The position numbers and the translations under genes were made by a program. A DNA stretch of 36,020 bases from a virus: IMG/VR virus record IMGVR_UViG_3300046811_000129, positions 1 to 36,020 of that record, one strand, 5' to 3'. Every line of letters begins with the position of its first letter. The first letter of the stretch is position 1. The notes under the pieces are model-generated. The model saw only the letters and a list, made by a program, of their open reading frames with translations, was not told where the DNA came from and did no database searches. Positions 3,893 to 36,020 of the stretch are shown here, in pieces.

Positions 3893-4243
3893 ATGACACG
3901 GATGACCGGCCTCTATTGGTGGATCGATCGCTGGCGCACGAGCACCGCGTTTCGCGAGATGACGCTCGAGGAGCAGGGCGCCTATCGCAACCTGCTCGAC
4001 GAGGCGAGTCTGTGCGGCGGCGCGTTGCCGGATGACGAGCGCATTCTGGCGCGGGCGTGCGGCGACGCGACCCGCTGGCCGGCGGTGCGCGAGCGCGTGC
4101 TCGCGAAGTTCACGCGCACGGCGACGGGCTGGCACAACGAGACGCTCGACGCCGTGCTCCGTGAATCGCGCGTCCGGGCGAAACGCCAGCGGCGCTATCG
4201 GACCGGCAAGGGGAACGGGAAGGAGCACACGGCGCGTCACTGA
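3893..4243 (+). CDS. DUF1376 protein, C-terminus removed by in-frame TGA
   Basis: 116-aa protein. GLYWWIDRWRTSTAFREMTL, then EEQGAYRNLLDEASLCGGAL and PDDERILARACGD, are the hallmark of the DUF1376 family, which lies in phage replication modules and is often thought to act in replication initiation. The TGA at 4241-4243 lies inside the first unit of a 12-bp repeat array. The same frame stays open for another 88 codons to a TGA at 4508-4510 that overlaps the next start as ATGA. The full-length gene was therefore probably 3893-4510 (205 codons) and has been truncated by one base change. Start ATG 3893; a second ATG is at 3902. Confidence 0.8.
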   Translation: MTRMTGLYWWIDRWRTSTAFREMTLEEQGAYRNLLDEASLCGGALPDDERILARACGDATRWPAVRERVLAKFTRTATGWHNETLDAVLRESRVRAKRQRRYRTGKGNGKEHTARH

Positions 4244-4402
4244 GGGCATAACGGCGACCGTAACGGCGGGCATAACGACTGGCGTAACGGCGACCGTAAC
4301 GGCGACCGTCACGACACGCGTCACGGAGGGCGTCACGCGATGCATAACGGCGACCGTAACGGCGGGCATAACGACTGGCGTAACGACCACCGTAACGAGA
4401 GG
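4235..4402 (+). repeat. 12-bp coding minisatellite, 14 units
   Basis: Fourteen consecutive 12-base units follow the pattern CGTAACGGCGAC, with variants starting CATAAC or CGTCAC. Units 2-4 (4247-4282) are identical over 36 bases to units 10-12 (4343-4378), showing a higher-order duplication. Unit 1 (CGTCACTGAGGG) and unit 8 (CGTCACGGAGGG) differ by one base, and that base makes the stop codon. In the DUF1376 frame the units encode Arg/His-Asn-Gly-Asp tetrapeptides, a type of hydrophilic C-terminal tract I associate with this family. Confidence 0.93.
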
Positions 4403-11207: not shown

Positions 11208-11398
11208 TGGCCGCCGCCGCGCCGCGCCTCACCCTGACGCCGACCGAGCTCGCCGCCGTGGTGCGACTGCTCGGCCGCGGTCGCTCGCTCGCCGACTGTC
11301 TGCGCCGCATCGAATTGCAGCGCGGCCTATTCACCGAGGCCCGCGTCGACCTGGCGCCGCGCCGCACCGTCACCCGTACCCGAACGCAGGACCGTTAA
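11207..11398 (+). CDS. Small basic helical protein
   Basis: 63-aa protein starting at ATG 11207, overlapping the previous TAA (TAATG). Its core, LTLTPTELAAVVRLLGRGRS followed by LADCLRRIELQRG, reads like a compact helical, possibly DNA-binding, unit with a basic tail (RTVTRTRTQDR). A GTG at 11198 would add three residues. No family is recognised. It sits between the Cys-cluster gene and the conserved 148-aa gene. Confidence 0.5.
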   Translation: MAAAAPRLTLTPTELAAVVRLLGRGRSLADCLRRIELQRGLFTEARVDLAPRRTVTRTRTQDR

Positions 11399-13359: not shown

Positions 13360-13734
13360 GTGAACGCGGCCGAGCTGCTCGCACGCGACGATCCGGATCC
13401 GACGGTCCACGGGCGCCGGCGGTCGTATCAATGTGGCTGTGCCTGTCCGGCGTGCCTCGCCGCCAACGCCGCGTATAGCCGGCGCTACCGCGCCGCGCAG
13501 CGCGCCGGCCGCCCGGTGCTCGGCGCCCACGCGCCGGCCCGCGAGGCGCTCAAGGTCGTCCGCGTGCTCCTGGCGGAAGGCTACCGCCGCGCGGACATTG
13601 CGCGCGGCCTTGGGCGCCAGCCGGCGCGGCCCTGGCCGGAACTGACGATCGGCCGGCGCGGCGCCGCCGTCACCTGGCGGACCGTCTACCGGCTCAAGGT
13701 CTTGCTCCGCCGCCTCGATCGGCTCGAGGTATGA
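13360..13734 (+). CDS. HTH and Cys-cluster protein before the terminase
   Basis: 124-aa protein from GTG 13360, with no clear ribosome-binding site. Residues 17-45 show the phage motif HGRRRSYQCGCACPACLAAN followed by AAYSRRYRAAQRAG. Its three closely spaced cysteines and a basic Tyr/Arg helix probably bind metal and nucleic acid. A later VVRVLLAEGYRRADIARGLG block looks like a helix-turn-helix. Its position just before the small terminase gene suggests a late regulator or a packaging accessory protein. ATGA overlap with terS. Confidence 0.6.
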   Translation: MNAAELLARDDPDPTVHGRRRSYQCGCACPACLAANAAYSRRYRAAQRAGRPVLGAHAPAREALKVVRVLLAEGYRRADIARGLGRQPARPWPELTIGRRGAAVTWRTVYRLKVLLRRLDRLEV

Positions 13735-14324
13735 CCAAGGCCACCCCGAAGCCTCGCGTCCCGCGGCTGCGGGCCCGGCGCACCTCGCCCCCGCCGGACA
13801 CCCTCTCGCCGAAGCAGCTGGCGTTTGTGGCGGAATATCTCGTGGATCTGAACGCGACCCAGGCCGCGATCCGCGCCGGCTACAGCCGGACACGGGCCGA
13901 CATGCAGGGGTACGAGAACCTGAGAAAACCTGAGATCGCGGCCGCCATCCAGGCCGGGCAGCGCGCGCAGCTGGCGGCCGCCGGCGTGAGCAAAGCGCGG
14001 CTGTTGCAGGAGCTCGGGCGCATCGCGCTCAGTCAGGTCGCGGACTACTTCGATCCCGTGACCAAGGACGCGAAACATCCGGCCGACCTCAGTCCCGACG
14101 CCGGCGCCGCGCTCGCCGGCTTCGAAGTCCTGATCAAGAACGCGGCGGCCGGCGATGGCGTCACCGACACAATCCACAAGTTCAAACTGTGGGACAAGGT
14201 GAAGGCGATCGAACTCTATATGAAGCATTACGGCATGTTGATCGAGAAGGTCGAGATCACCGACGCCGGCGTCGAGGCGCGGGTGGCGCGGCTCGAGGCC
14301 GCGCGGAAGCGCGTCGATCGATGA
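13731..14324 (+). CDS. terS: Terminase small subunit
   Basis: 197-aa protein of the Terminase_2 type. DTLSPKQLAFVAEYLVDLNA then TQAAIRAGYSRTRADMQGYE is the N-terminal HTH that recognises the packaging site in many phages. A long helical middle for oligomerisation and a C-terminal part binding the large subunit follow (AIELYMKHYGMLIEKVEITD). It starts by ATGA overlap and its stop overlaps the large-subunit start (ATGA at 14321). The usual length for the family is 140-200 aa. The recognition site (pac) is often within or near this gene but cannot be seen by eye. Confidence 0.85.
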   Translation: MTKATPKPRVPRLRARRTSPPPDTLSPKQLAFVAEYLVDLNATQAAIRAGYSRTRADMQGYENLRKPEIAAAIQAGQRAQLAAAGVSKARLLQELGRIALSQVADYFDPVTKDAKHPADLSPDAGAALAGFEVLIKNAAAGDGVTDTIHKFKLWDKVKAIELYMKHYGMLIEKVEITDAGVEARVARLEAARKRVDR

Positions 14325-24584: not shown

Positions 24585-26072
24585 ATGCCCTTGTTCACCG
24601 GCTTTTGCGGCGGCAGTAACGCCGAGGCGTCCTCGGTGATTGATGCCGAATTGACGGTCAACCTGTACCGGACGACCGTCGAAACCGAAGGCGCCGCGAA
24701 AGCCGCGTACTTGCGCGGCACGCCAGGACTGCGCCGCACGGTGACGGTGATCGCCGGCGCGTCGGCCTGCCGCGGCGTGTTCTATCAGGACGGGCGCGCC
24801 CAGGCCGTGATCGGCGCGACGCTCTACGAGCTCGGGATCGATCCCGCGAGCGGCGATGTCGTCGGCGCGTCGGTGATCGGCCCGATCCGCGATGACGGCC
24901 TCCCGGTCAGTTTCGCGACCAACGGCGACGGCGGCAACCAACTCGTGATCTGCGGCGGCGGCCAGCTCAAGCTGTTCAACCTGGCGACGAATGTCCTCAG
25001 CGCCGCGATCGCGCTGCCGCTCGTCAACCCGCCGCAGTTTGTCGGCTTCATGGACGGCTATTTCGTCCTGAGTGAACGCGGCTCGATCCGGTTTTGGTTC
25101 TCGGCGATCGAAAACGGCTTGCTGTGGGACGCGCTCGACTTCGTGAGCCGCTCGACCGCCAGCGATCGGATCATCGCGACGATGTGCGCCAATTCGCGCG
25201 TGTGGGTGTTTGGCTCCGAGACGGGCGAGGCGTACGAAGATGTCGGCGACGCGGATAACCCGTTCCAGCCGATCAAGGGCTCGCTGTTTGAAATCGGCCT
25301 CGCCGCGCCCTACTCGCTGAGCCTCGGCGTATCGACGTTGCGCTGGATCGGCCGCAGTCGCACGAGCGGCCTCGCGGTCTATCGCCTCGACGGCTACGCC
25401 GGGACGCGGATCAGCACGCACGCGATCGAGGCCGGCCTCGCGCGCGCGACGACCGTCGCCGACGCCGAAGCGTTCACCTACACCCAACAGGGCCACCAGT
25501 TCTATGCGATCACCCTGCCGTCGATCGGCGTGGCCGGTGACACGATCGTGCTCGACGAGATCGAACATGCGTGGCATCACCGCCGCGCGTGGAATCCGAC
25601 CCTGAGCCAAGAGGAAGCGTGGCGCGTGCGCGGGCACGCCTTCACCGGCCGCCGGCACGTCGTCGGCACGCGCGACGCCGGGATCCTCTGTGCGCTCGAC
25701 CTCGAGACGTACGACGACGACGGCGCGATCCTCCGCGCCCGCCGGCGCGCGCCCTACCTCGGCGCCGAGAACACGTATGCGTCGATCGACCGCTTCGAGC
25801 TCGGCACCGAGCCCGGCGTCGGCCTGAACAGCGGGCAAGGCAGTCTCCCCCAGGCGGAACTCTTTCTGAGTCGCGACGGCGCGAAAACGTGGGTGAGTGC
25901 GGGCCTGGCGACGCTCGGCGCGATGGGGCAGTACGGCGCGCGCGTGCTGTGGACGCAGCTCGGCCAGGCGCGGATCGATCGGCTCGTGTTCGAAGTGGTG
26001 ATCACGGACCCGGTGAAGCGCCTGATCGGGCCCGGCGCGTGGATCGGCGTGACGCCGGGGCGGGCGGCCTGA
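24585..26072 (+). CDS. P22 gp10-like packaged-DNA stabilisation protein
   Basis: 495-aa protein similar in size and order to P22 gp10 (472 aa). The N-terminal block LFTGFCGGSNAEASSVIDAE then LTVNLYRTTVETEGAAKAAY is typical of this family: a short N-terminal segment, the Asn-Leu-Tyr block and AYLRGTPGL. Repeated beta segments follow, including LVNPPQFVGFMDGYFVLSER and VSTLRWIGRSRTSGLAVYRL. Six copies form the hub under gp4 that seals the tail. TGATG overlap with the fibre gene. Confidence 0.82.
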   Translation: MPLFTGFCGGSNAEASSVIDAELTVNLYRTTVETEGAAKAAYLRGTPGLRRTVTVIAGASACRGVFYQDGRAQAVIGATLYELGIDPASGDVVGASVIGPIRDDGLPVSFATNGDGGNQLVICGGGQLKLFNLATNVLSAAIALPLVNPPQFVGFMDGYFVLSERGSIRFWFSAIENGLLWDALDFVSRSTASDRIIATMCANSRVWVFGSETGEAYEDVGDADNPFQPIKGSLFEIGLAAPYSLSLGVSTLRWIGRSRTSGLAVYRLDGYAGTRISTHAIEAGLARATTVADAEAFTYTQQGHQFYAITLPSIGVAGDTIVLDEIEHAWHHRRAWNPTLSQEEAWRVRGHAFTGRRHVVGTRDAGILCALDLETYDDDGAILRARRRAPYLGAENTYASIDRFELGTEPGVGLNSGQGSLPQAELFLSRDGAKTWVSAGLATLGAMGQYGARVLWTQLGQARIDRLVFEVVITDPVKRLIGPGAWIGVTPGRAA

Positions 26073-27274
26073 TGGCGATCGGCGATGTCCCGCTCACCCC
26101 GATCATTGACACGGTGACGGGCTCCGTCACGGAGATCGGGCGGATCTTTCTCCGCACGCTGAGCGCGGCCGTCGGCGCGCTCGCGCCGATCGACGCGGCC
26201 TATTGGACGAGTCGCGCGGCCGGCGTGCTCTCGGCCGAGGTGAATCTCGGCGCGCTCGCGTCCGGCTATCTCAAGATCGCGACCGCCGTCGGGATCGCGA
26301 CGCCGAGCACCGTGCCGACGATCCCGCAAGCCGACGTGAGCGGGCTGCCGGCGGCGCTGGCGGGCGCCGCGCAACTCGCCGGCGGGAACAGTTTCACCGG
26401 GAATCAGACGATCGCCGGCGTCGTCACCGTGACGGGCTTCGGGGCGCACACCGTCACGGCGGGCGGCCTCGGCGGCCACAGTCTCACGATCCGCAATACC
26501 ACGGCGGGCAGTAACTACGCACAGCTCGCCGTGGGGAACGATGTCACCGCGCAACTCGGATCGCTGTTCGGGTTTGCCTCGACCTATCCCGCCTCGGCCG
26601 ACGCGATCCCGAGCGGCGTCACGCTGCGCGGGACGGGGAGCGGCGGCCTGACGCTCTCGACCTCCGGCGCGACCGCGCTCCGCTTCGTGACGAGCCTGGT
26701 CGAACGGATCCGGATCCTGGGCACCGGCGAGCTGTTGATCAACACGCCGACCGCGCTCGCCGGCTTCGTGCAGAAGATCGGGATCGCCTTCGATGGGGCG
26801 GCCGGCTCGGCGATCGTGTGGCAGAACGCGAACGCGGGCAACACCGGCAACCTCGCCGTGTTTCTCAACAGCGCGGGCGGCGTGGCCGGCTACATCAACC
26901 AGACGGCGGCGCTCGCCGTGAATTACAACACCACGTCCGACGCGCGCCTGAAAACCGACGCCGGCCGCGCGACCGATCTGTCGGCGCTCCGCGCGCTCGT
27001 GGTGCACGACTTCCGGTGGAAAGCCGACGGCGCGCGCGATCGCGGCGTGTTCGCCCAGGAAGCGGCGGCGCTGTTTCCGCGGGCGATCACGCCCGGCACC
27101 GACGCGACGACCGCCGCCGGCGCGCTCGTACAGCCGTGGGCCGCCGACTACAGCAAATTTGTCGCCGACTTGATCGTCGGCTGGCAACAGCACGAGACGG
27201 AGATTGCGACGCTCCGCGCCGCGATCGGCGAGCTCGTGGTTGCGCTCGCGAAAGGATCGCGCGCTGATGCCTAA
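26072..27274 (+). CDS. Tail fibre with S74 intramolecular chaperone
   Basis: 400-aa protein. Its N-terminus likely attaches to the tail, its middle is a beta-repeat shaft (SFTGNQTIAGVVTVTG), and its last 110 residues form an intramolecular chaperone of the Peptidase_S74 type. NTTSDARLKTDAGRATDLSA carries Ser289 and Lys294 as the likely Ser/Lys dyad, followed by DFRWKADGARDRGVFAQEAA and a coiled-coil end (QQHETEIATLRAAIGELVVA). Such chaperones trimerise the fibre and then cleave themselves off. TGATG overlap with the gp10-like gene. Confidence 0.85.
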   Translation: MAIGDVPLTPIIDTVTGSVTEIGRIFLRTLSAAVGALAPIDAAYWTSRAAGVLSAEVNLGALASGYLKIATAVGIATPSTVPTIPQADVSGLPAALAGAAQLAGGNSFTGNQTIAGVVTVTGFGAHTVTAGGLGGHSLTIRNTTAGSNYAQLAVGNDVTAQLGSLFGFASTYPASADAIPSGVTLRGTGSGGLTLSTSGATALRFVTSLVERIRILGTGELLINTPTALAGFVQKIGIAFDGAAGSAIVWQNANAGNTGNLAVFLNSAGGVAGYINQTAALAVNYNTTSDARLKTDAGRATDLSALRALVVHDFRWKADGARDRGVFAQEAAALFPRAITPGTDATTAAGALVQPWAADYSKFVADLIVGWQQHETEIATLRAAIGELVVALAKGSRADA

Positions 27275-28811
27275 CACCTCCGTCCTCGGCGGCCAGAGTG
27301 AAGCCACGATCGATCAGGCCAATATCGCCATGCGCGCGTCGCCGTGGTACCAGGAACAGATGCGCGCCTGGAACCAAGATCCGGGGCATCCGACGCTGCA
27401 AGCCTGGCAGCGCGACCAACTCACCCGCGCCGCGCAGGCCAACGGGTACATCGTCGATCAGGGCCATATCGAGATGGACGACCACGGTAATTTCAATCCC
27501 ATTGGTCACAAGCTCCGCAACACGATCATTGTGATCGGCCTGGCGGCGGCGACCGTCGCCACGATGGGCGCGGCGGGCGCGTTTGCCGGCGCGGCCGGCG
27601 CCGGGACGGGCGCCGCGGCCGGCACCGGGGCGACCGTGGCCGGCGTCGAGGGCGGCGCGGCGGGCCTGTCGAGCGGCGCGCTCGCCGGCCTTGGCACCGG
27701 GGCGATGGGCGCGGTGCCCGTCGCCGCCGGCGTCGGCGGCGCCGCGGCAGCCGGCGCGCCGATCCTCGAGGGCCTGGCCGCCGGCGGCGGCGGCGCCTCG
27801 ACCGCGATCCCCGCCGGGGCCGGCCTGGCGGGCGTCGAAGGCGGCGCGTATGGCGTGGGTGATACGGCGCTCGCCGGCCTCGGCACCGGCGCCATGGGCC
27901 CGACCGCGCTTGTCGGGACGACCCTGCCGAGTGCCGGCGCGATCGCCGCGGCGAAGGCCGCCGGCTACACGGTCGACGGCAACGGCGTCGTCACCGACGC
28001 CGCGAACGTGCCGCCGGACTACTTCAGCACCGCGGCCGGCACCCGCAGCTATGCGGATCTGATCAAGTACGGCCTGCCGATCGCCGGCGGGATCGCCTCG
28101 TCGCTGATTCAGGCCAACGCCAGCGGCAAGGCGTCCGACGCGCAGCAGAAATACCTCGAGGACGCGCTGGCCTACGAGAAGGAAAACGATCTCTATAACC
28201 GGGGCGTCGCCGCGGACAAAGTGAAGCTCGAGGCCGGCCGCTATGCCGACTACACCGGGCGGATCGGCGGCTTTGTCGAGAACGGCCAGAGCAGCAACGA
28301 TCGCATGAGCGCCTTGCTCGGCCTGCCGGCGCGCAGCGGCGCCTCGAGCGGCGGCGCCGCGAGCTACAGCAGCTACGGCACGCCGGGCCCCCAAGGCGTC
28401 ACCGTGTCGCCCGAGCTCACGCAGCGCGTGATCGACAACTACAAGGCGCTCGGCCTCACGCCGACCGGCGCCGGCACCGGGCCGACGGATACGGCCTACT
28501 TCGCGAGCAAGTACGCGGAGACGGGCGGCAGCACTCCCGGCAACGATGCGTATTGGTTTGGCCCCGGCGGGCGCATCGCGAAAGAGGCGACCCAGGCCGG
28601 GCTGAAGTTCGGCACGCCGACCACGCCGCCCGCCGCGACATCCCCGACACCGTCTCAGACAGGGGCGACACCGACCGCCCCGACGCAGCAAGGCGCGCCC
28701 GTCGCCAAGAGTCTCGTGACGGTGCGCTGGCCCGACGGCAGCTCGTTACAGGTTCCCCCGGATCAAGTGGAGTCGTACCGCCGCGGCGGCGCGACGGTGC
28801 TAGGAGCGTAG
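27267..28811 (+). CDS. Ejection-type internal virion protein with tandem repeat
   Basis: 514-aa protein. A short polar start is followed from about residue 85 by a very hydrophobic Gly/Ala stretch (NTIIVIGLAAATVATMGAAG), which could insert into membrane. Within it a 63-codon tandem duplication is seen, with LAGLGTGAMG and AGVEGGA each occurring twice, 189 bases apart. Then come a helical part (KYLEDALAYEKENDLYNRGV) and a Thr/Pro tail. Its position and composition match P22-type ejection proteins that exit the virion and help DNA cross the envelope. ATG 27267 has AAAGGA about 10 bases before it and overlaps the fibre stop. Confidence 0.65.
   Translation: MPNTSVLGGQSEATIDQANIAMRASPWYQEQMRAWNQDPGHPTLQAWQRDQLTRAAQANGYIVDQGHIEMDDHGNFNPIGHKLRNTIIVIGLAAATVATMGAAGAFAGAAGAGTGAAAGTGATVAGVEGGAAGLSSGALAGLGTGAMGAVPVAAGVGGAAAAGAPILEGLAAGGGGASTAIPAGAGLAGVEGGAYGVGDTALAGLGTGAMGPTALVGTTLPSAGAIAAAKAAGYTVDGNGVVTDAANVPPDYFSTAAGTRSYADLIKYGLPIAGGIASSLIQANASGKASDAQQKYLEDALAYEKENDLYNRGVAADKVKLEAGRYADYTGRIGGFVENGQSSNDRMSALLGLPARSGASSGGAASYSSYGTPGPQGVTVSPELTQRVIDNYKALGLTPTGAGTGPTDTAYFASKYAETGGSTPGNDAYWFGPGGRIAKEATQAGLKFGTPTTPPAATSPTPSQTGATPTAPTQQGAPVAKSLVTVRWPDGSSLQVPPDQVESYRRGGATVLGA
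27642..28019 (+). repeat. 189-bp (63-codon) tandem duplication in an ejection gene
   Basis: Two diverged in-frame copies begin at 27642 and 27831. Both start with GGCGTCGA and encode AGVEGGA followed by ALAGLGTGAMG. The offset is exactly 189 bases, or 63 codons, so it arose by an in-frame tandem duplication in the hydrophobic region of the protein. The right boundary of the second copy is not sharp. Confidence 0.6.
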
Positions 28812-28814
28812 ATC

Positions 28815-29855
28815 ATGGCCGCCTGGACACAAGCCGAGCTCGCCGAATCGCAGAACGCGGCGAATCAGTACTACACGTCCCACCAAGCCGCGCAAGGCTG
28901 GACGCCGGACGACGTGAACCAGCAGTACCAGTATTGGCGCAACGAGGGACACAGCCACGCGGAGGCCATGGCCCATATGACCTCGGCGCTCGGATGGGCC
29001 GCGAACCCCACGCCGGCCGCGTCTACCGTGTCGAACGACCAGATGGCCGGGTTCTATCAGAGCAACCTCGGCCGCCCCGGCACGCCCGAGGAATACGCGC
29101 CGTGGAACCGCGACTATGGCGGCGACGCGAACGCGATCCGTCAAGCGATCTACGACTCGGCCGAAGCGCAGGCGTACCGCGCCAAACAAGCCGGCGGCGG
29201 GACGACGAGCGGCGGCAGCACCGGCGGCGGCGGCACCGGCGGCGGCGGCGGCGCCATGGCGGCGCCCGGATGGAGCGCGCCCGCCGGCCCGCCGTCGTCC
29301 GGCTTCGGCGCCGCGCCGCCGACCTATCAGAGCGATCCCAACGCGCCGCAGTTTCAACCGCTGCCCGAGTACCGGGCGCCGACGTGGACCGGCGGCGATT
29401 TCGTCAACCCGAGCGAGGAGGATCTCAAGAGCTCGCCCGGCTACCAAGCGCGCCTCGACCAACTGATCAAGACCAAGACGCGCCAGGCCGCGGCGCAGGG
29501 CACCGTGTTGAGCGGCGGGACGCTCGTCGCGCTCGATCGCGCCGGCCAGGACTACGCCACCAACGAGTACCAGACGTTTCGCAACAACGCCCTCGACGCC
29601 TACAAACAGAAGTACGCGCAATTTACCGACGCGGCCGGCATGGACCTGAACGCGCGCACGATCAACGCGAACCAGAATCAGCAGACGTTCGCGAACCGGA
29701 CGCAGACCTACAACACCGGGAACGCGCGCACGCTCAGCGACTACCTGACCAACGTCACCGCGCAGCGCAACGCCGAGCTCGATTACTGGAACCGGCTGAA
29801 CGATGTCAACCAAACCGGCGCCAACCTCGCCGGCAGCAGCTACCGGGCGCCATGA
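28815..29855 (+). CDS. Ejection-module protein, unknown
   Basis: 346-aa protein. The start, MAAWTQAELAESQNAANQYY, is helical and polar. A DQMAGFYQSNLGRPGTPEEY motif occurs near residue 75, then a Gly/Ser/Thr-rich linker with TTSGGSTGGGGTGG. A helical C-terminal half follows, with AARLDQL-type and TINANQNQQTFANRTQTYNT segments. It lies in the ejection-protein block between two large Ala-rich proteins and is joined to the next gene by an ATGA overlap. A role as internal or ejected virion protein is inferred from place and composition. Confidence 0.6.
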   Translation: MAAWTQAELAESQNAANQYYTSHQAAQGWTPDDVNQQYQYWRNEGHSHAEAMAHMTSALGWAANPTPAASTVSNDQMAGFYQSNLGRPGTPEEYAPWNRDYGGDANAIRQAIYDSAEAQAYRAKQAGGGTTSGGSTGGGGTGGGGGAMAAPGWSAPAGPPSSGFGAAPPTYQSDPNAPQFQPLPEYRAPTWTGGDFVNPSEEDLKSSPGYQARLDQLIKTKTRQAAAQGTVLSGGTLVALDRAGQDYATNEYQTFRNNALDAYKQKYAQFTDAAGMDLNARTINANQNQQTFANRTQTYNTGNARTLSDYLTNVTAQRNAELDYWNRLNDVNQTGANLAGSSYRAP

Positions 29856-31765
29856 GCTCCGTCAGCGCGATCCTGCAGCAGATGGCGGAAAACGCCGGCC
29901 GGGCGCAGCTCGCGCGCGGGCAGACGTACGGCTCGCTCGTCGCGCAGGCCTCGCAAGTGCCGGCGCAGATCATGGACGACCGCGAGCGCCAGGCCACGCT
30001 CGATTTTCAGCGCGCGCGCGAGGCGCAGCAGATGGCGCTCGCGACCCGCGCCGATCAGCGCGCGACGCTCGATCAGGCCTACCAGGATCAGCAGCGCGCC
30101 GCCAGCCTCGAGCACGATCGGATCGTGCGCGCCGGCCTCGTGGCCGCGATGGGGCCCGACGGCGATCCGAGCCAGTTCGACGCGAAAGCCGCCTTCCAAG
30201 CCGTGTCGCGCCTCGGCCGGCCCGACGCGCTCGCCGACGTGATCAAAACCCATCAGGCGATGCGGACGGCGCCGCTGTTCAAGAAGGAAGGGGAGACGGG
30301 CGTCGATCCGTATACCTACCAGCCGATCCCAGGCCTCGAGGCGACCCCGAAGATGCCCGAGATCGGGACGCCCGGCTACGGCATCGCCACGCGGATCCAA
30401 GACCTCGAGGGCACCGGCGCCCCACCGACCGCGGGCCCGCCGCCCGCGCCGGGCGCGCCGCCACCGGGCCCGGCCTCGACCTACGCCGCCCGCGCCGCGC
30501 TCTTACAGAACGGCCCGCCGCCGTCGACGGTGCCGGCCGGCGGCCCTGGCGCGCCCGCGACGACCGCGGCGCCACTCGCCGCACTCGCCCCGCCGACGAC
30601 ACTTGGCGCGCCCGCCGCCGCACCGCCCGCCGCCGCCCCGCCGCCGCGTCTGACGCACGCGCAGGCCGTTGCGAAGGCGTACGCCGACGCGGAAGCCGCC
30701 AAGGATCCGATCCTGGCGCTGTATACCAAACGCGCGAGCGGCGCGACCCTGACCCCCGACGAGACGGCGCAGATCGCCGGCTACGAGGCGAAGAAGAACG
30801 CCGATGATGCGCCGGTCACGATCAAGACGATCGAAAACGGCCGCATGGTCGAAAAGGTGATGACGCGCGCCGACGCGCTCAAGGCCGGCCTGTTTCCGTC
30901 ACAACCGCCGGCGTCGGTGCAAGTCCAGAACATGCCGCCGCCGCCGTCGCGCCCGGCGAACAAAGCCGAGATCGCGATCGCGAATTACCAAGTGCCGCCG
31001 CCGAGCCCGCGCACGTTTGCGACGCCGGCCGGCCAGGCGATGCTCGATCGGATCCTGACCGTCAACCCTGATTACGATCAATCGCTGTACGCCGTGCGCG
31101 CGCCGACGCGGAAGGCCTACACCACCGGCACGCAGGGGCAGCAACTCGTCGCGATCGGCACCGCGATCCAGCACCTCGATCTGCTCCAACAGGCCGCCGA
31201 CGCGCTCAACAACGGCACCTTGAAGCCGGGCAACGCGATCTACAACGCGCTCGCGGATACGTTCGGCGGCGCGGCGCCGACGACGTTCGACACGATTAAG
31301 GAGAAGGTCGACAAGGAACTCGACGCCGTGGCCCAGAAAGGCGCGCCGACCGTCAGCGGCTCCGCGGCGCAGAAAGCGATCGGCGGCCGATCGGGGAGTC
31401 CGGCCGCGATCAAGAGCTACATTGACAGCTCGATTCAGCTCATGGGCGGCAGCTACAACGCGCTCCGCACGCCCTATCAAGGGGCGATGGGCGCCAATGC
31501 GCCTTTTGAATTTCTCTCACCGGAGGCGAAGGCCGTCCTGAGTAAACGCGGCTTTGATCCGGACAATCCCAACGCGACCTTTAACGCGACGCCCGGCGCC
31601 GGCGCCACACCGGGCGGCCCGGCCGCGCCCGCCGGCCGCGGCGCCGGGCCTGGCGCGCCGATCACCGTCACGGATCCGAAGGGCGACGTGCACACGTTCG
31701 CCACGCAAGCACAGGCCGAGATCTTCAAGGCCGCGATCGCCAAAGCCGCGGCCGGGATCAAATAG
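29852..31765 (+). CDS. Large Ala/Gln/Pro-rich ejection-type protein
   Basis: 637-aa protein. The N-terminal 110 residues are a Gln/Arg/Ala-rich helix (DFQRAREAQQMALATRADQR). Two Pro/Ala linkers follow (APPTAGPPPAPGAPPPGPAS and others). Next are a helical domain with DQSLYAVRAPTRKAYTTGTQ and a QQLVAIGTAIQHLDLLQQAA block, and a tail after IDSSIQLMGGSYNALRTPYQ. The QQLVAIGTAIQHLDLL signature is one I associate with phage internal proteins. It is likely packaged in the head and ejected with DNA, like P22 gp20. ATGA overlap with the previous gene. Confidence 0.62.
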   Translation: MSSVSAILQQMAENAGRAQLARGQTYGSLVAQASQVPAQIMDDRERQATLDFQRAREAQQMALATRADQRATLDQAYQDQQRAASLEHDRIVRAGLVAAMGPDGDPSQFDAKAAFQAVSRLGRPDALADVIKTHQAMRTAPLFKKEGETGVDPYTYQPIPGLEATPKMPEIGTPGYGIATRIQDLEGTGAPPTAGPPPAPGAPPPGPASTYAARAALLQNGPPPSTVPAGGPGAPATTAAPLAALAPPTTLGAPAAAPPAAAPPPRLTHAQAVAKAYADAEAAKDPILALYTKRASGATLTPDETAQIAGYEAKKNADDAPVTIKTIENGRMVEKVMTRADALKAGLFPSQPPASVQVQNMPPPPSRPANKAEIAIANYQVPPPSPRTFATPAGQAMLDRILTVNPDYDQSLYAVRAPTRKAYTTGTQGQQLVAIGTAIQHLDLLQQAADALNNGTLKPGNAIYNALADTFGGAAPTTFDTIKEKVDKELDAVAQKGAPTVSGSAAQKAIGGRSGSPAAIKSYIDSSIQLMGGSYNALRTPYQGAMGANAPFEFLSPEAKAVLSKRGFDPDNPNATFNATPGAGATPGGPAAPAGRGAGPGAPITVTDPKGDVHTFATQAQAEIFKAAIAKAAAGIK

Positions 31766-34700
31766 ATGCCGGCCACCGAGCAGATCGATTACGCCGCGCT
31801 CGCGGATCAGGCCCGCGCCGCGGCGCCCGCGCCCGCCGCCGCGCCCCCACCGCCGCCGCCACGCCCGGCGATGACCTTCGCCATGGTGAACGGTCAGCGC
31901 GTGCCCGTCGACGACGCCGACCCGATGGCGCCCGGCGTGATCACGATGATCGGCGCGCCGGGCGTGGTCCCGCCGCCGCCCGCGGCGCCCGCGGTCGATT
32001 ACGCCAAGCTCGCCGACGCCGCGCGCCAGGCGGCCCCGCCCGACGATCCGTCGCTGTGGCAGCGCGCGAACACCTCGCCGCTCCATCCGTATTTCGAGGC
32101 GGCGCGGCAGTCGATCGTCGAGCACATGACCGCCCCGACACTCTCGGCCGATCCGGTGTCCGCGGGGATGCGCGGCGGCGCCGCCGGCATCAGTGAAGGG
32201 CTTTTGAACGTCGCCGAATCGTTCACGACGCCGACGGGCTTCGCGCTGTGGTTGACCGGGCTCGGCGCGGAGAGCGCCGCCGTCAAAGCGATTCCGGCGC
32301 TCAAGCCGTTGATCGCGCTCCCGGCCGTGCAGGCGCTCCGCGTCGCCGTGCATGGCACCGCCGGCGCCGCCTTCGCCGCGCATGGGGCCGGCCAGGCCGC
32401 CGAGGGCGCGAGCACGATCTACGACGCCGCGACGAGTGCCACGCCGCCGCCCGAGGGGCGACTCGAGAAGGCGCTCGGCGGCGCCGGGCAGATCGGGCAG
32501 GGCGCGATCGAAATGGCCGGCGGCGCGCTCGGGATGCACAGCGCGTATCAGACCGCCCAGCCCGCGATTGCCGCCTGGCAGCAGACGCGCCGCACGGCGG
32601 CCGGCGCCGCGGCGCTCGATGATTTCCGGAAGGCCGCGCCGCCGTCGGTCGCGGCGCCGTATACCACGGACGAATTGCAGCGCGGCTACTCGTTGATTCT
32701 GCGCGATCACGTCACGAACCAACCGATTACGACGATCGCCGAGGGGATCGCCGCCGCGGACAACCAGATCGGCCGACTCGAGGATGGATTCAATGCGCTG
32801 ATCGCGAAGGATCCGACCCAACTGATCACCACGAAACCGCTCGCCGCGGCGCGCGCGGCGCTCAGTACCGGCGCGCGCTCGACCGACGTCGCGAAGGGGC
32901 TCGCGAACCTCGAGACGCTCGATCTCGACAAGCCCCTGACCGTCTTTCGGGCGAACGACATCCGGCAACGCCTGAACGCGGAAAACGCGGCCGAGCTCGT
33001 CAAGAGCGGATACGACGTCGCGAAGGCGCGCGAAGTGGATCCGGCCTTCGCCGCACGGGAGGCGGCCGTCGCGTCGCTCCGCGATGGCATCCATGACGTG
33101 CTCGACGCGCGCGCGCAACAGACGCCCGGCTTTACGCGCGATCTCCGCCTCGACGAGGGCGCCGTGATCGCCGTGCGCAACGCGCTGCTGCGACAGCAGT
33201 ATCGCAACGACGCGCGCGTCGGCGGCACCGGGCGGACGAGTCTCAGCCGGAAGATCATCGCCGGCGCGGTCCGCGCGACCGGCGTCGGCGTCGGCGGCGC
33301 GGGCGGCGCGGCGATCGGGGGCGTGCCGGGCGCCGTCGGCGGCGGGATTGTCGGCGGCGTCATTGCCGAGCCGATCGCTCACGCCGTCGATCAACCCCCG
33401 CTGACGCGCGACGCGCTGATCGAACGGTCGTTTCAGCGCGCGTCCGCGCCCGGCACCAGCTTACAGACGACACCGGCCGGGCCGGTCGCGCCAGGCGCCA
33501 CCGGCGGCGCGCCGGGCGGTTCGCCGATCGTGCCGGGGATCGTGCCGAGCGGCTCGAGCGGGCCCGGCGGCGCCTCGAGCGCGGGACCAGGCGGCGCGCC
33601 GCCGCCGCCGGCCGCGGGCTCGCGGCAACAGGTCGCCGTCAAGACGTTCCTTGCGCTCCGCGCTCGCGGCTACAGTCGCGAACAGGCGGTGCAGGCGGCG
33701 GCCAGCTACGCGCGGCAGACCGCTGCGCCCACGACGCCGCCGGTCCTCGACGCCGAGATCGTCCCTGATCCGAGCCTGCCGCCGGGCCCGCCGCCGCCGC
33801 GCGCCTTGCCGCCGGCCGAGGCGCCCGCGCCGTCGGTTCCCCTCGGACCGGGCGCACGCACCACGACACCCAACCTCGCGACGTTCACCGATGACGCGCT
33901 CCGTTATGCTGCCGAGCAGGGGATCCCGACCTACGCCGCGGCCGCCCGCGCCGAGATCGCACGCCGCGGCGGCACCCCGCCGGCTACAATCGGGCCCGAT
34001 GCCGCGGCCGCCGTCGCCGATCAATCTGGTGCCGCCGCTCGAGCCGGGGACGTCGCGCCCGGTGGCGGTCCGCAACTTCCTGCGCCTGCGGGCGAGCGGG
34101 TTCTCGCGCCGGCAGAGCGTGCAGCTCGCGCTCGCGTCCGCGCGGCCGCCCGCGCCGACACCCGCGCCGCCGCCGACGCTGAAGAACAGCAAGGGCTAAG
34201 CGATCTTGTCGCGAAGGCGCAGGCCGCCGGCTATCCCGGCGATCCGGCCGCGCTGCGCGCCGAGCTCGCCGATCGGTTGCAGGGCATTAAGGATCTGCAC
34301 GCCGAATTCGACGATCAGGGCACCAACGGGATCACGCTGCTCAAGGCGATCGCGGCCAATGGCGGCTTGTCCGAACCCGCCGCCGCGGCGGCCGGACATC
34401 CGGGGGAGCTGCGGTGGTTGAAAGAGATGCGCGACACGGCGCCGACGACCCGGCAGAACGCCGGCAACCTCGCGGCCCGGCGCGTGCTCGACACCGTGCG
34501 CGGCGTCAAAGGCGTGTTCCGCGACGCGACCGAGATGACGCGCGGTGGGCGCGCCGGCGGGCAGGATCTCGGCGGGATGCTCGACAAGCTCCGCGCGGAC
34601 GGCCGGTTTACGCACCTCGCAAACACGAACGATCTCGCCGAGGCGATCCGCGCGGCGGCGATGGGGCGCGCGGAGAGCCGCAACGCGCTGGCGGACCTGG

Positions 34701-34828
34701 CGGCGACGAGCCACGATCTGATCGGCACCGCGACGATCCACCCCGAGGACGATCTCAGCTTCGATCCCGCGACGCTCGAGGCCGAGAGCCAGGCGCACGC
34801 GGCGGCACCGGCGCGCGCCAAGAAATGA
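31766..34828 (+). CDS. 1020-codon ejection-type protein with an anomalous segment
   Basis: 1020-aa reading frame, last of the ejection block (P22 gp16-like position). The N-terminal linkers contain a repeat, IDYAALADQARAAAP and VDYAKLADAARQAAP. A hydrophobic part (ALWLTGLGAESAAVKAI, and later a Gly/Ala stretch near residues 505-540) could insert into membrane. Helical domains continue to the end. From about 33998 to 34190 this frame has poor codon bias (24 of 67 codons end in A or T), while the +1 frame has almost perfect bias and encodes a copy of an upstream module. The true product may therefore use another frame in that stretch. Confidence 0.6.
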   Translation: MPATEQIDYAALADQARAAAPAPAAAPPPPPPRPAMTFAMVNGQRVPVDDADPMAPGVITMIGAPGVVPPPPAAPAVDYAKLADAARQAAPPDDPSLWQRANTSPLHPYFEAARQSIVEHMTAPTLSADPVSAGMRGGAAGISEGLLNVAESFTTPTGFALWLTGLGAESAAVKAIPALKPLIALPAVQALRVAVHGTAGAAFAAHGAGQAAEGASTIYDAATSATPPPEGRLEKALGGAGQIGQGAIEMAGGALGMHSAYQTAQPAIAAWQQTRRTAAGAAALDDFRKAAPPSVAAPYTTDELQRGYSLILRDHVTNQPITTIAEGIAAADNQIGRLEDGFNALIAKDPTQLITTKPLAAARAALSTGARSTDVAKGLANLETLDLDKPLTVFRANDIRQRLNAENAAELVKSGYDVAKAREVDPAFAAREAAVASLRDGIHDVLDARAQQTPGFTRDLRLDEGAVIAVRNALLRQQYRNDARVGGTGRTSLSRKIIAGAVRATGVGVGGAGGAAIGGVPGAVGGGIVGGVIAEPIAHAVDQPPLTRDALIERSFQRASAPGTSLQTTPAGPVAPGATGGAPGGSPIVPGIVPSGSSGPGGASSAGPGGAPPPPAAGSRQQVAVKTFLALRARGYSREQAVQAAASYARQTAAPTTPPVLDAEIVPDPSLPPGPPPPRALPPAEAPAPSVPLGPGARTTTPNLATFTDDALRYAAEQGIPTYAAAARAEIARRGGTPPATIGPDAAAAVADQSGAAARAGDVAPGGGPQLPAPAGERVLAPAERAARARVRAAARADTRAAADAEEQQGLSDLVAKAQAAGYPGDPAALRAELADRLQGIKDLHAEFDDQGTNGITLLKAIAANGGLSEPAAAAAGHPGELRWLKEMRDTAPTTRQNAGNLAARRVLDTVRGVKGVFRDATEMTRGGRAGGQDLGGMLDKLRADGRFTHLANTNDLAEAIRAAAMGRAESRNALADLAATSHDLIGTATIHPEDDLSFDPATLEAESQAHAAAPARAKK
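33632..33715 (+). repeat. Helix module, copy 1 (main frame)
   Basis: 28 codons encoding VAVKTFLALRARGYSREQAV followed by QAAASYAR, in the frame of the 1020-codon gene and with normal codon bias. It is flanked by Pro-rich linkers. It matches copy 2 at 34062-34145 at 17 of 28 residues, with conservative changes at several others (K/R, Y/F, A/S). Confidence 0.75.
33999..34199 (+). CDS. Nested +1-frame ORF carrying module copy 2
   Basis: 66-codon frame from ATG 33999 to TAA 34199, overlapping the 1020-codon gene in the +1 frame. Only 2 of its 66 codons end in A or T, the bias of real genes here, against 24 of 67 in the main frame. It encodes VAVRNFLRLRASGFSRRQSV then QLALASAR, clearly related to module copy 1, between Pro-rich linkers (MPRPPSPINLVPPL, then ARPPAPTPAPP). 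It is either a separately started nested gene, a frameshift product of the long gene, or the trace of compensating indels. No Shine-Dalgarno sequence is seen; TACAAT lies 10-15 bases before the ATG. Confidence 0.45.
   Translation: MPRPPSPINLVPPLEPGTSRPVAVRNFLRLRASGFSRRQSVQLALASARPPAPTPAPPPTLKNSKG
34062..34145 (+). repeat. Helix module, copy 2 (+1 frame)
   Basis: 28 codons, related to 33632-33715 at the protein level only when read in the +1 frame relative to the 1020-codon gene. The order of flanking Pro-rich linkers is the same in both copies, which argues that linker and helix were duplicated together. Confidence 0.72.
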
Positions 34829-34853
34829 TCCCGTCTGAATCTGAAGGAACCCC

Positions 34854-35021
34854 ATGACGAAACCCAAACGTGATCAGCCGACGCCCCCGATCGCCGACCC
34901 GCCGCGCCGCGATGACGACGACGCGCGCCCCACGCATCCGATCGCCGATCCGCCCGGCCGACCCGGTGCGCATCCGGAGCACCCGATCCACGAACCGCCG
35001 ACGGCCGAACCCAAGGCCTGA
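34854..35021 (+). CDS. 55-aa Pro-rich repeat protein
   Basis: 55-aa protein with AAGGAA close before ATG 34854. It is a short disordered protein with repeats: PIADPP occurs twice and a variant PIHEPP once, separated by acidic or basic residues (RRDDDDARPTH). It is the last rightward gene of the late operon, 25 bases after the ejection gene. The style resembles the tail of the protein at 21910. Function unknown; support comes from the ribosome-binding site, the codon bias and the internal repeat. Confidence 0.5.
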   Translation: MTKPKRDQPTPPIADPPRRDDDDARPTHPIADPPGRPGAHPEHPIHEPPTAEPKA

Positions 35022-35109
35022 CGCCGCGCCCTGTCGGCGGATCGGCGGCGAAGCTGGGACGCGGCACCGCGGCAGTTCAGTCGTGGCTGCGTGTAGTGCG
35101 ACGCCGGCG

Positions 35110-35132
35110 ATCCGCCGCCGGTTCCGGCGGAT
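35110..35132. terminator. Hairpin between convergent operons
   Basis: ATCCGCCG (35110-35117) pairs perfectly with CGGCGGAT (35125-35132) over a 7-base loop. An alternative CCGCCGG/CCGGCGG stem with a 2-base loop overlaps it. It lies between the end of the rightward late operon (35021) and the end of the leftward protease gene (35132), a natural place for a two-way terminator. There is no clear T-run. Confidence 0.5.
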
Positions 35133-35644
35133 TAGCTGGCGAGACGCACGGATCCGTCGCGACCGTCGTAGACCAGGAGCATGTCCCTGAGCACGGAGCG
35201 ACCGAGGAGGGCTTGGTGCGGTTGGTTACCGGCGCGGAGTTTCACGCCCATGAACCGCCCGAATTGTACGAAACCTAACGCCGCAATCCGAATATACCCA
35301 AGGTAGACATTGAAGTTCTCCGTGCCGCCGATCCCGGATCCCTTGGCCTGATCGATGAGGGGCAGCTGCAGCGCCTTCGCGAGCTCCTCATCAATGCAAC
35401 TGTCCGTCGCTCCGGTGTCGATCAACGCCTCGACCAGCTGCGCCGGCGGCTGGGCCTGCATCGACGCAATCGCCTGCTGGACGACGGCCGGATCGGAATG
35501 AAAGAAGGCCTGATTGAACCCGATCTCGACCCCCACGGTCGGGCCTTTCATGACGAGCAGATCGCGCCCCGTGATGAAGCGTGCGGGGGTGCTCCCGGGC
35601 ACCTGGACCAACGCCGGGAATCCGCAGTTCGCGATCGGGCTCAC
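35132..35644 (-). CDS. Retropepsin-like aspartic protease
   Basis: 170-aa leftward protein from GTG 35644. The active-site block VEALIDTGATDSCIDEELAK (71-90) has the DTG triad (D76) in the hydrophobic-Asp-Thr-Gly context of retroviral-type proteases. A flap-like KGSGIGGTENFNVYLG follows (101-116). The second hydrophobic-Gly motif, ALLGRSVLRDMLLVYDG (145-161), is in the usual place. Retropepsin-like proteases act as dimers, each giving one Asp. The target is unknown. It overlaps the partner gene at its start (GTGA). In bacteria such proteases are often next to a small protein like the one at 35641; here the pair sits as an accessory operon opposite to the phage genes. Confidence 0.75.
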   Translation of the reverse strand: MSPIANCGFPALVQVPGSTPARFITGRDLLVMKGPTVGVEIGFNQAFFHSDPAVVQQAIASMQAQPPAQLVEALIDTGATDSCIDEELAKALQLPLIDQAKGSGIGGTENFNVYLGYIRIAALGFVQFGRFMGVKLRAGNQPHQALLGRSVLRDMLLVYDGRDGSVRLAS

Positions 35645-35826
35645 CCGAGCGCCTGCTGGCGAAAGAGCACGGAGGCGGGCAGGGTGGCGCGCGGGGCGCC
35701 GACTTGGCGAATGAGATACGGCCCGCGTCCGAAGCGCGTGGCGGCTTCCTCGGCGGCTGCGTTCAGGGTATCCCAGGCGCCGATGAAGTCGTGCCCCTTG
35801 AACACGACAAACTTGCCGAGGTACAC
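35641..35826 (-). CDS. Small partner protein of the aspartic protease
   Basis: 61 aa from GTG 35826, but protein-like sequence extends 23 codons further upstream (TTEIAAYEQQQVELERVYLG, before GKFVVFKGHDFIGAWDT) to a TGA at 35898-35896. No usual start codon exists in that extension. The conserved core DTLNAAAEEAATRFGRGPYL then IRQVGAPRATLPASVLF matches small bacterial proteins usually placed just before retropepsin-like genes, as I recall them. The real start is probably lost through a frameshift near the circular joint, or lies in the 42-codon frame upstream. Stop overlaps the protease GTG. Confidence 0.6.
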   Translation of the reverse strand: MYLGKFVVFKGHDFIGAWDTLNAAAEEAATRFGRGPYLIRQVGAPRATLPASVLFRQQALG

Positions 35827-35878
35827 ACGCTCGAGCTCAACCTGCTGCTGCTCGTAGGCGGCAATCTCCGTCGTGAGA

Positions 35879-36007
35879 TCAGCAGCGGGCCGCGCTCACG
35901 CTCACCAGCTTCCGGAGCCGATCGCGAATTTCCAGATCAATGGGGTGCGCCGCCATCCGGAACCGATCGTAGGACGATCGTGCGCGCCGCGCGTGCCTCT
36001 TTTCCAT
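35879..36007 (-). CDS. 42-codon leftward ORF at the circular joint, possible broken N-terminus
   Basis: ATG at 36007 (also at 114 in the left copy) begins MEKRHARRARSSYDRFRMAA then HPIDLEIRDRLRKLVSVSA and ends at TGA 35881-35879. It lies just behind a TAAAAT -10 element and overlaps the open frame of the protease partner, which is in the +1 frame. Loss of a single base near 35881-35900 would fuse the two into one protein of about 120 aa. It may therefore be the true N-terminus of the partner gene or a separate short gene. Confidence 0.4.
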   Translation of the reverse strand: MEKRHARRARSSYDRFRMAAHPIDLEIRDRLRKLVSVSAARC

Positions 36008-36020
36008 TTGGATATTTTAT
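35894..36020. repeat. Right copy of 127-bp terminal direct repeat
   Basis: Exact copy of bases 1-127. Features here (the start of the leftward operon and its ATG) are the same physical sequence as the left end if the genome is circular. Base 36020 should be joined to base 128 to read through the joint. Confidence 0.95.

Follow-up and report, generated by a model that had tools for sequence, protein, structure and literature searches.

In a P22-like soil phage, represented by a record of 36,020 nt that we refer to as the window, the third gene of a presumed DNA-ejection cluster contains an island (33998-34196, plus strand) whose codon usage fits the +1 frame instead of the annotated main frame. 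Codon log-odds, third positions, six-frame scoring and a tiling model all mark it. Read in the +1 frame, the island carries a second copy of a two-helix module close to a stop codon, the site at which this module usually lies in the gene-3 proteins of related phages, and the main frame is coding on both sides of it. We suggest, with roughly even confidence, that mosaic recombination placed the 3′ terminal part of a gene-3-type coding sequence here in the wrong frame, and that translation follows the main frame.

Gene context

A Pfam search of the window found a portal protein (PF16510, E 4.5e-82) and a coat protein (PF11651, E 1.7e-15), and the head-closure protein Hc3 corresponds to phrog_578 (E 1.3e-80). 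Portal, coat and head-closure proteins of P22 type are thus all present, as in a P22-like podovirus gene cluster. A gene of the DNA-ejection family phrog_598 lies at 28815-29855, a second cluster gene ends at 31765, and directly after it begins the main ORF (31766-34828, plus strand, 1020 aa), which by gene order comes third in the presumed ejection cluster, at the position of P22 gene 16. Neither this ORF nor the corresponding genes of two related phages, L053 and strain B, has a Pfam or PHROG match. Because of this its role is taken from gene order, and we file it presumptively by its place after the phrog_598 gene, not as a member of the P22 gp16-type ejection proteins; an ejection function would follow from that order. 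GC3 is 0.89-0.90 in both parts of the main ORF.

Several other features of the window were recorded. An exact terminal repeat of 127 nt (1-127 and 35894-36020) is of the kind left by circular assembly with k = 127, and the unit is about 35893 bp. Just past the cluster, on the opposite strand, 35132-35644 encodes a retropepsin-like aspartyl protease (PF13650, E 8e-8; also PF13975 and PF00077), which is unusual cargo for a phage. At 4234-4397 (plus strand) a repeat of ~69 nt occurs in two copies that are 91% identical and 96 nt apart, with common 18-mers spaced at 36-96 nt.

The module copies and the borders of the island

Copy 1 of the module (VAVKTFLALRARGYSREQAVQAAASYAR, 33632-33715, plus strand) is read in the main frame and copy 2 (VAVRNFLRLRASGFSRRQSVQLALASAR, 34062-34145, plus strand) in the +1 frame. 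They agree at 17 of 28 residues and at 49 of 84 nucleotides (58% DNA identity). The first-pass annotation had described them as a duplicated module with Pro-rich flanks, and this was borne out: with the flanks included, their local alignment has a BLOSUM62 score of 108. None of 2000 shuffles scored above 61, and among 751 other segments of 66 aa, taken out of frame or antisense from this genome, the highest score was 84. The nucleotide identities at the three codon positions (19, 17 and 13 of 28) would fit homologous coding in those two frames.

We also scored the genome with an HMM of the relatives' C-terminal modules, built from nine gene-3 proteins with the window left out. Copy 1 was the second-ranked site (E 0.0058) and copy 2, in the +1 frame, the third distinct site with a weak E of 0.19. 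The best site (E 9e-6) was an ORF of about 62 aa at 11211-11398 (plus strand; MAAAAPRLTLTPTELAAVVRLLGRGRSLADCLRRIELQRGLF...), which has a counterpart in strain B and appears to be a free-standing form of the module. A profile comparison (hhalign) of copies 1 and 2 with the relatives' modules gave 81% probability over 22 columns. Since copy 2's own E value is weak, we assign it to the module by its likeness to copy 1 and by its site before a stop codon. AlphaFold2 predicted a helical hairpin for copy 1 from the single sequence (pLDDT 85-93) and two helices for copy 2 in the +1 frame from 11 sequences (block pLDDT 78-90; module model pTM 0.39).

Codon usage sets the island apart from the rest of the gene. 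From 33998 to 34195, 23 of the 66 main-frame codons end in A or T, compared with 10.9% genome-wide (binomial p 2e-7), and none of 4457 66-codon windows inside genes holds more than 18. By codon log-odds the +1 frame exceeds the main frame by 60.7 bits, whereas elsewhere the mean is -140 (sd 34). Six-frame scoring likewise put the +1 frame first (+18.8), ahead of the best antisense frame (+7.6) and the main frame (-38.8), in agreement with the earlier claim that the codon bias fits +1 better than main. The main frame was preferred in the other tested windows inside genes, the sole other positives being at an apparently mis-started ORF: its listed GTG start at 14189 lies within an overlap (14189-14324, plus strand) with ORF 13731-14324, whose frame suits the codon model better, and its true start is probably further downstream. 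The contrast in A/T-ending codons between the two frames of the island, to which attention had been drawn, stands in one part only. The poor main-frame GC3 is real, but the high +1 GC3 is for the most part a consequence of the main-frame residues, as +1 still receives about 2 A/T-ending codons when the main frame is recoded synonymously. The informative signal is therefore the poor main-frame GC3, together with the module.

By the tiling model, the left border of the island lies within 34007-34025. The right border falls on 34197, exactly at the TAA that stops the +1 frame (34197-34199, plus strand). Alternative right borders cost at least 4 bits, save 34206 (0.8) and 34209 (2.6), both of which read through this stop. 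A putative +1 ORF (P0002) runs from the ATG at 33999 to the TAA at 34199 (plus strand, 66 aa), and the annotation had let the island begin at that ATG. Beginning the +1 frame there costs 6.8 bits, so this start did not hold up, and with the left border past the ATG, 33999-34199 is less likely to be a small gene complete in itself. With its right border at the TAA, the island instead resembles the terminal part of a coding sequence. An exact direct repeat of 18 nt (CGCGGCCGCCCGCGCCGA) stands near the island ends at 33937-33954 and 34141-34158 (plus strand), and an 89% copy at 34003-34020 adjoins the left border; elsewhere in the genome, exact repeats at such short range are confined to tandem or simple-sequence stretches.

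As had been pointed out, the main frame runs through the island without a stop. Given coding in +1, the probability that it stays open over 66 codons is 0.55 from real genes and 0.59-0.88 under two randomizations; an open main frame is thus expected by chance, to a degree that depends on the model, and needs no special cause. Directly after the +1 stop the main frame resumes with a C-terminal domain (34196-34828, plus strand) that is 44% identical in alignment to the end of the L053 protein (phmmer E 2.7e-21). No ATG, GTG or TTG occurs in the main frame between 33806 and 34277, though the conserved sequence starts at 34196, so the last domain must be read from upstream through the island. Translation of the main frame is therefore needed, and an arrangement in which gene 3 ends at 34199 and a separate gene follows was rejected since the downstream gene would have no start codon. 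When the main frame was folded alone with AlphaFold2, copy 1 again formed a hairpin, the first half of the island was disordered (41-43), and a long Ala/Arg-rich helix led into the last domain. On these models, either frame of the island could be tolerable as protein.

Relatives of gene 3

One clear homolog of the main protein was found, a single protein in L053 (15830-18973) that matches it at the start, in the middle and in the last domain. The L053 linker is unrelated to the main frame of the island (score 38 compared with a shuffle median of 36). Strain B occurs in 3300046516_000972 and in one part of contig IMGVR_UViG_3300046533_000679. Its second cluster gene shares 71% identity with that of the window, but its gene 3 is a different and shorter one (415 aa). 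The other part of IMGVR_UViG_3300046533_000679 (G001, 62258 bp) is identical to most of the window: identity is complete over 25766-36020, and elsewhere the shared stretch is identical except at window positions up to 3870. The remainder of this contig is 78-93% identical with a different gene order, and the contig as a whole is probably a chimera or strain mixture joining two related phages.

The module closes the gene-3 protein, just before the stop codon, in all ten relatives inspected (strain B, L038-L042, L048, L051, L055 and L121), as a helix-turn-helix-like hairpin followed in most by a basic tail. From its core Leu to the protein end there are 40-48 residues in nine of the ten, and the tenth, L121, has a similar end; the +1 reading of the window has 36. 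The +1 reading, with its module close to the stop codon, thus looks like the C-terminal end of a gene-3-type gene. By inspection, L055 (10882-12069) and L121 carry two tandem modules at the gene-3 C-terminus, both in one frame. This C-terminal two-helix module recurs in gene 3 of the phage group and is absent from current family libraries.

Searches of IMG/VR with the whole main protein, the +1 ORF, the region 33899-34825 and copies 1 and 2 returned the identical contig only, and the C-terminal domain returned that contig and L053. Genome contigs gave no match to the C-terminal domain or to Hc3, and annotated phages gave none to the main protein or DNA; against the +1 ORF annotated phages gave weak matches in Caulobacter phages (best E 0.08). 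Raw tblastn without composition correction yielded low-complexity noise only. Neither frame of the island is conserved in any relative found, as the L053 linker is unrelated and the one contig that matches does not differ from the window.

Origin of the island and known systems

We propose that the island may represent the 3′ terminal part of a gene-3-type coding sequence, comprising linker, two-helix module, tail and stop, that came to lie in the wrong frame in a variable linker within a longer, mosaic gene 3. The joining could have been by illegitimate recombination between related phages or by a frame-breaking rearrangement of an ancestral copy 1-linker-copy 2-stop arrangement. The recipient gene would have had both its N-terminal and its C-terminal domains in the main frame, which happened to be stop-free across the island, so that translation most likely continues in it to 34828 and the 1020-aa product contains an Ala/Arg-rich linker that is new. 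The +1 reading would be a relic of recent date that can still be recognized, as there has been no time for decay. This embedding is favored by the terminal modules of the relatives, the two-module ends of L055 and L121, the hhalign match, the right border exactly at the TAA, the immediate resumption of main-frame coding and L053 homology with no downstream start, and the expectation of an open main frame. The mosaic character of gene 3, seen in strain B beside its conserved second gene, and the 18-nt repeat near the island ends favor it as well. Against it, neither a donor nor an island-free relative at an otherwise matching site was found in IMG/VR or genome contigs, the two copies are only 58% identical in DNA, which leaves copy 2 without an evident source, and the score of copy 2 against the relatives' HMM is weak.

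The closest rival, which we regard as unlikely, is that copy 2 was once in frame and that two natural compensating indels followed, one adding a base around 34010-34025 and the other removing a base ahead of 34197. This would explain well-chosen +1 codons between well-chosen main codons without a donor, and L055 and L121 do carry two modules in one frame. Under it the +1 stop at the right border must be a coincidence, which we estimate from the +1 stop density at roughly 1 in 10, and none of the ten relatives has another domain beyond its last module, a stop coming next in every case. The stop at the island border counts against compensating indels, though not decisively. Slightly less probable still is that the +1 frame is expressed now, yielding either a nested protein of 66 aa that starts at ATG 33999 or, by a +1 ribosomal frameshift, a shorter, module-ended protein resembling those of the relatives beside the 1020-aa form. 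The intact codons, module and basic tail, a stop where relatives usually have one, and the free-standing 62-aa protein at 11211-11398 and in strain B would suit such expression. The signals for it are missing: ATG 33999 has no Shine-Dalgarno sequence (only weakly negative, as several other genes of the genome also lack one), no promoter for the +1 ORF was found, and by inspection there is no classical slippery site near 33983-34025, where the codons ATC GGG CCC GAT ... GAT CAA TCT GGT include neither CCC-stop nor CTT-stop, nor any run of four. The left border past the ATG and the lack of conservation also count against it, and main-frame codons should not be so poor if the main frame were equally constrained. 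Of what the annotation had put forward, then, the relatives and the border at the TAA support a coding origin of the +1 stretch, as a C-terminal end that stops at 34199; present translation as a nested gene or by frameshift is not supported. Use of both frames, a minority of ribosomes shifting to +1 near 33983-34025 and ending at 34199 to give two predicted ejection-protein C-termini, seems improbable to us. The +1 frame encodes the peptides NFLR and QSVQLALASARPPAPTPAPPPTLK, and the main frame VLAPAER.

An assembly or sequencing artefact with two false indels is conceivable in a high-G+C metagenome contig and somewhat less probable again, since two errors that compensate each other within 200 nt would be improbable and contig IMGVR_UViG_3300046533_000679, which may not be independent, has the identical sequence. 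Least probable by some distance is that an ordinary linker of odd composition resembles the module fortuitously. The copies are indeed short and G+C-rich and the +1 GC3 is mostly forced, but their score exceeds that of every control segment, the main-frame GC3 deficit is unmatched within genes, and the relatives' HMM ranks both copies directly below the free-standing form.

If the +1 reading is indeed a relic, a phage gene has been caught soon after a mosaic join, while an older coding end can still be made out. That this stretch is read by luck in another frame, as a new linker, would be a concrete route to new protein sequence. The module recurs in gene 3 and as a free-standing small protein. 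For annotation, the open main frame hides the +1 module and its stop.

Podovirus ejection proteins exchange domains in a mosaic fashion, and their size and domain content differ between close relatives (PMC8954989, a review in which the word frameshift occurs 0 times). Gene 3 similarly differs among strain B, L053 and the window; unlike in that mosaicism, a module and its stop here lie out of frame inside an open gene. In T7 gene 10 and in Listeria phage PSA, programmed frameshifting gives phage structural proteins two C-termini. Such frameshifting has been reviewed (PMC5009743); as there, two alternative C-termini could be read from the main ORF, and unlike there, the island has no recognized slippery site, conservation or evidence of a second product. 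The short +1 ORF lies wholly inside a longer one, as in nested genes. Rz/Rz1 of lambda is an example of nested genes. In overprinting (reviewed in PMC8227390), the better codons belong to the older frame and the nested frame is the new one. Here, within the island only, the order looks reversed, with the nested frame the older and the enclosing one the newer.
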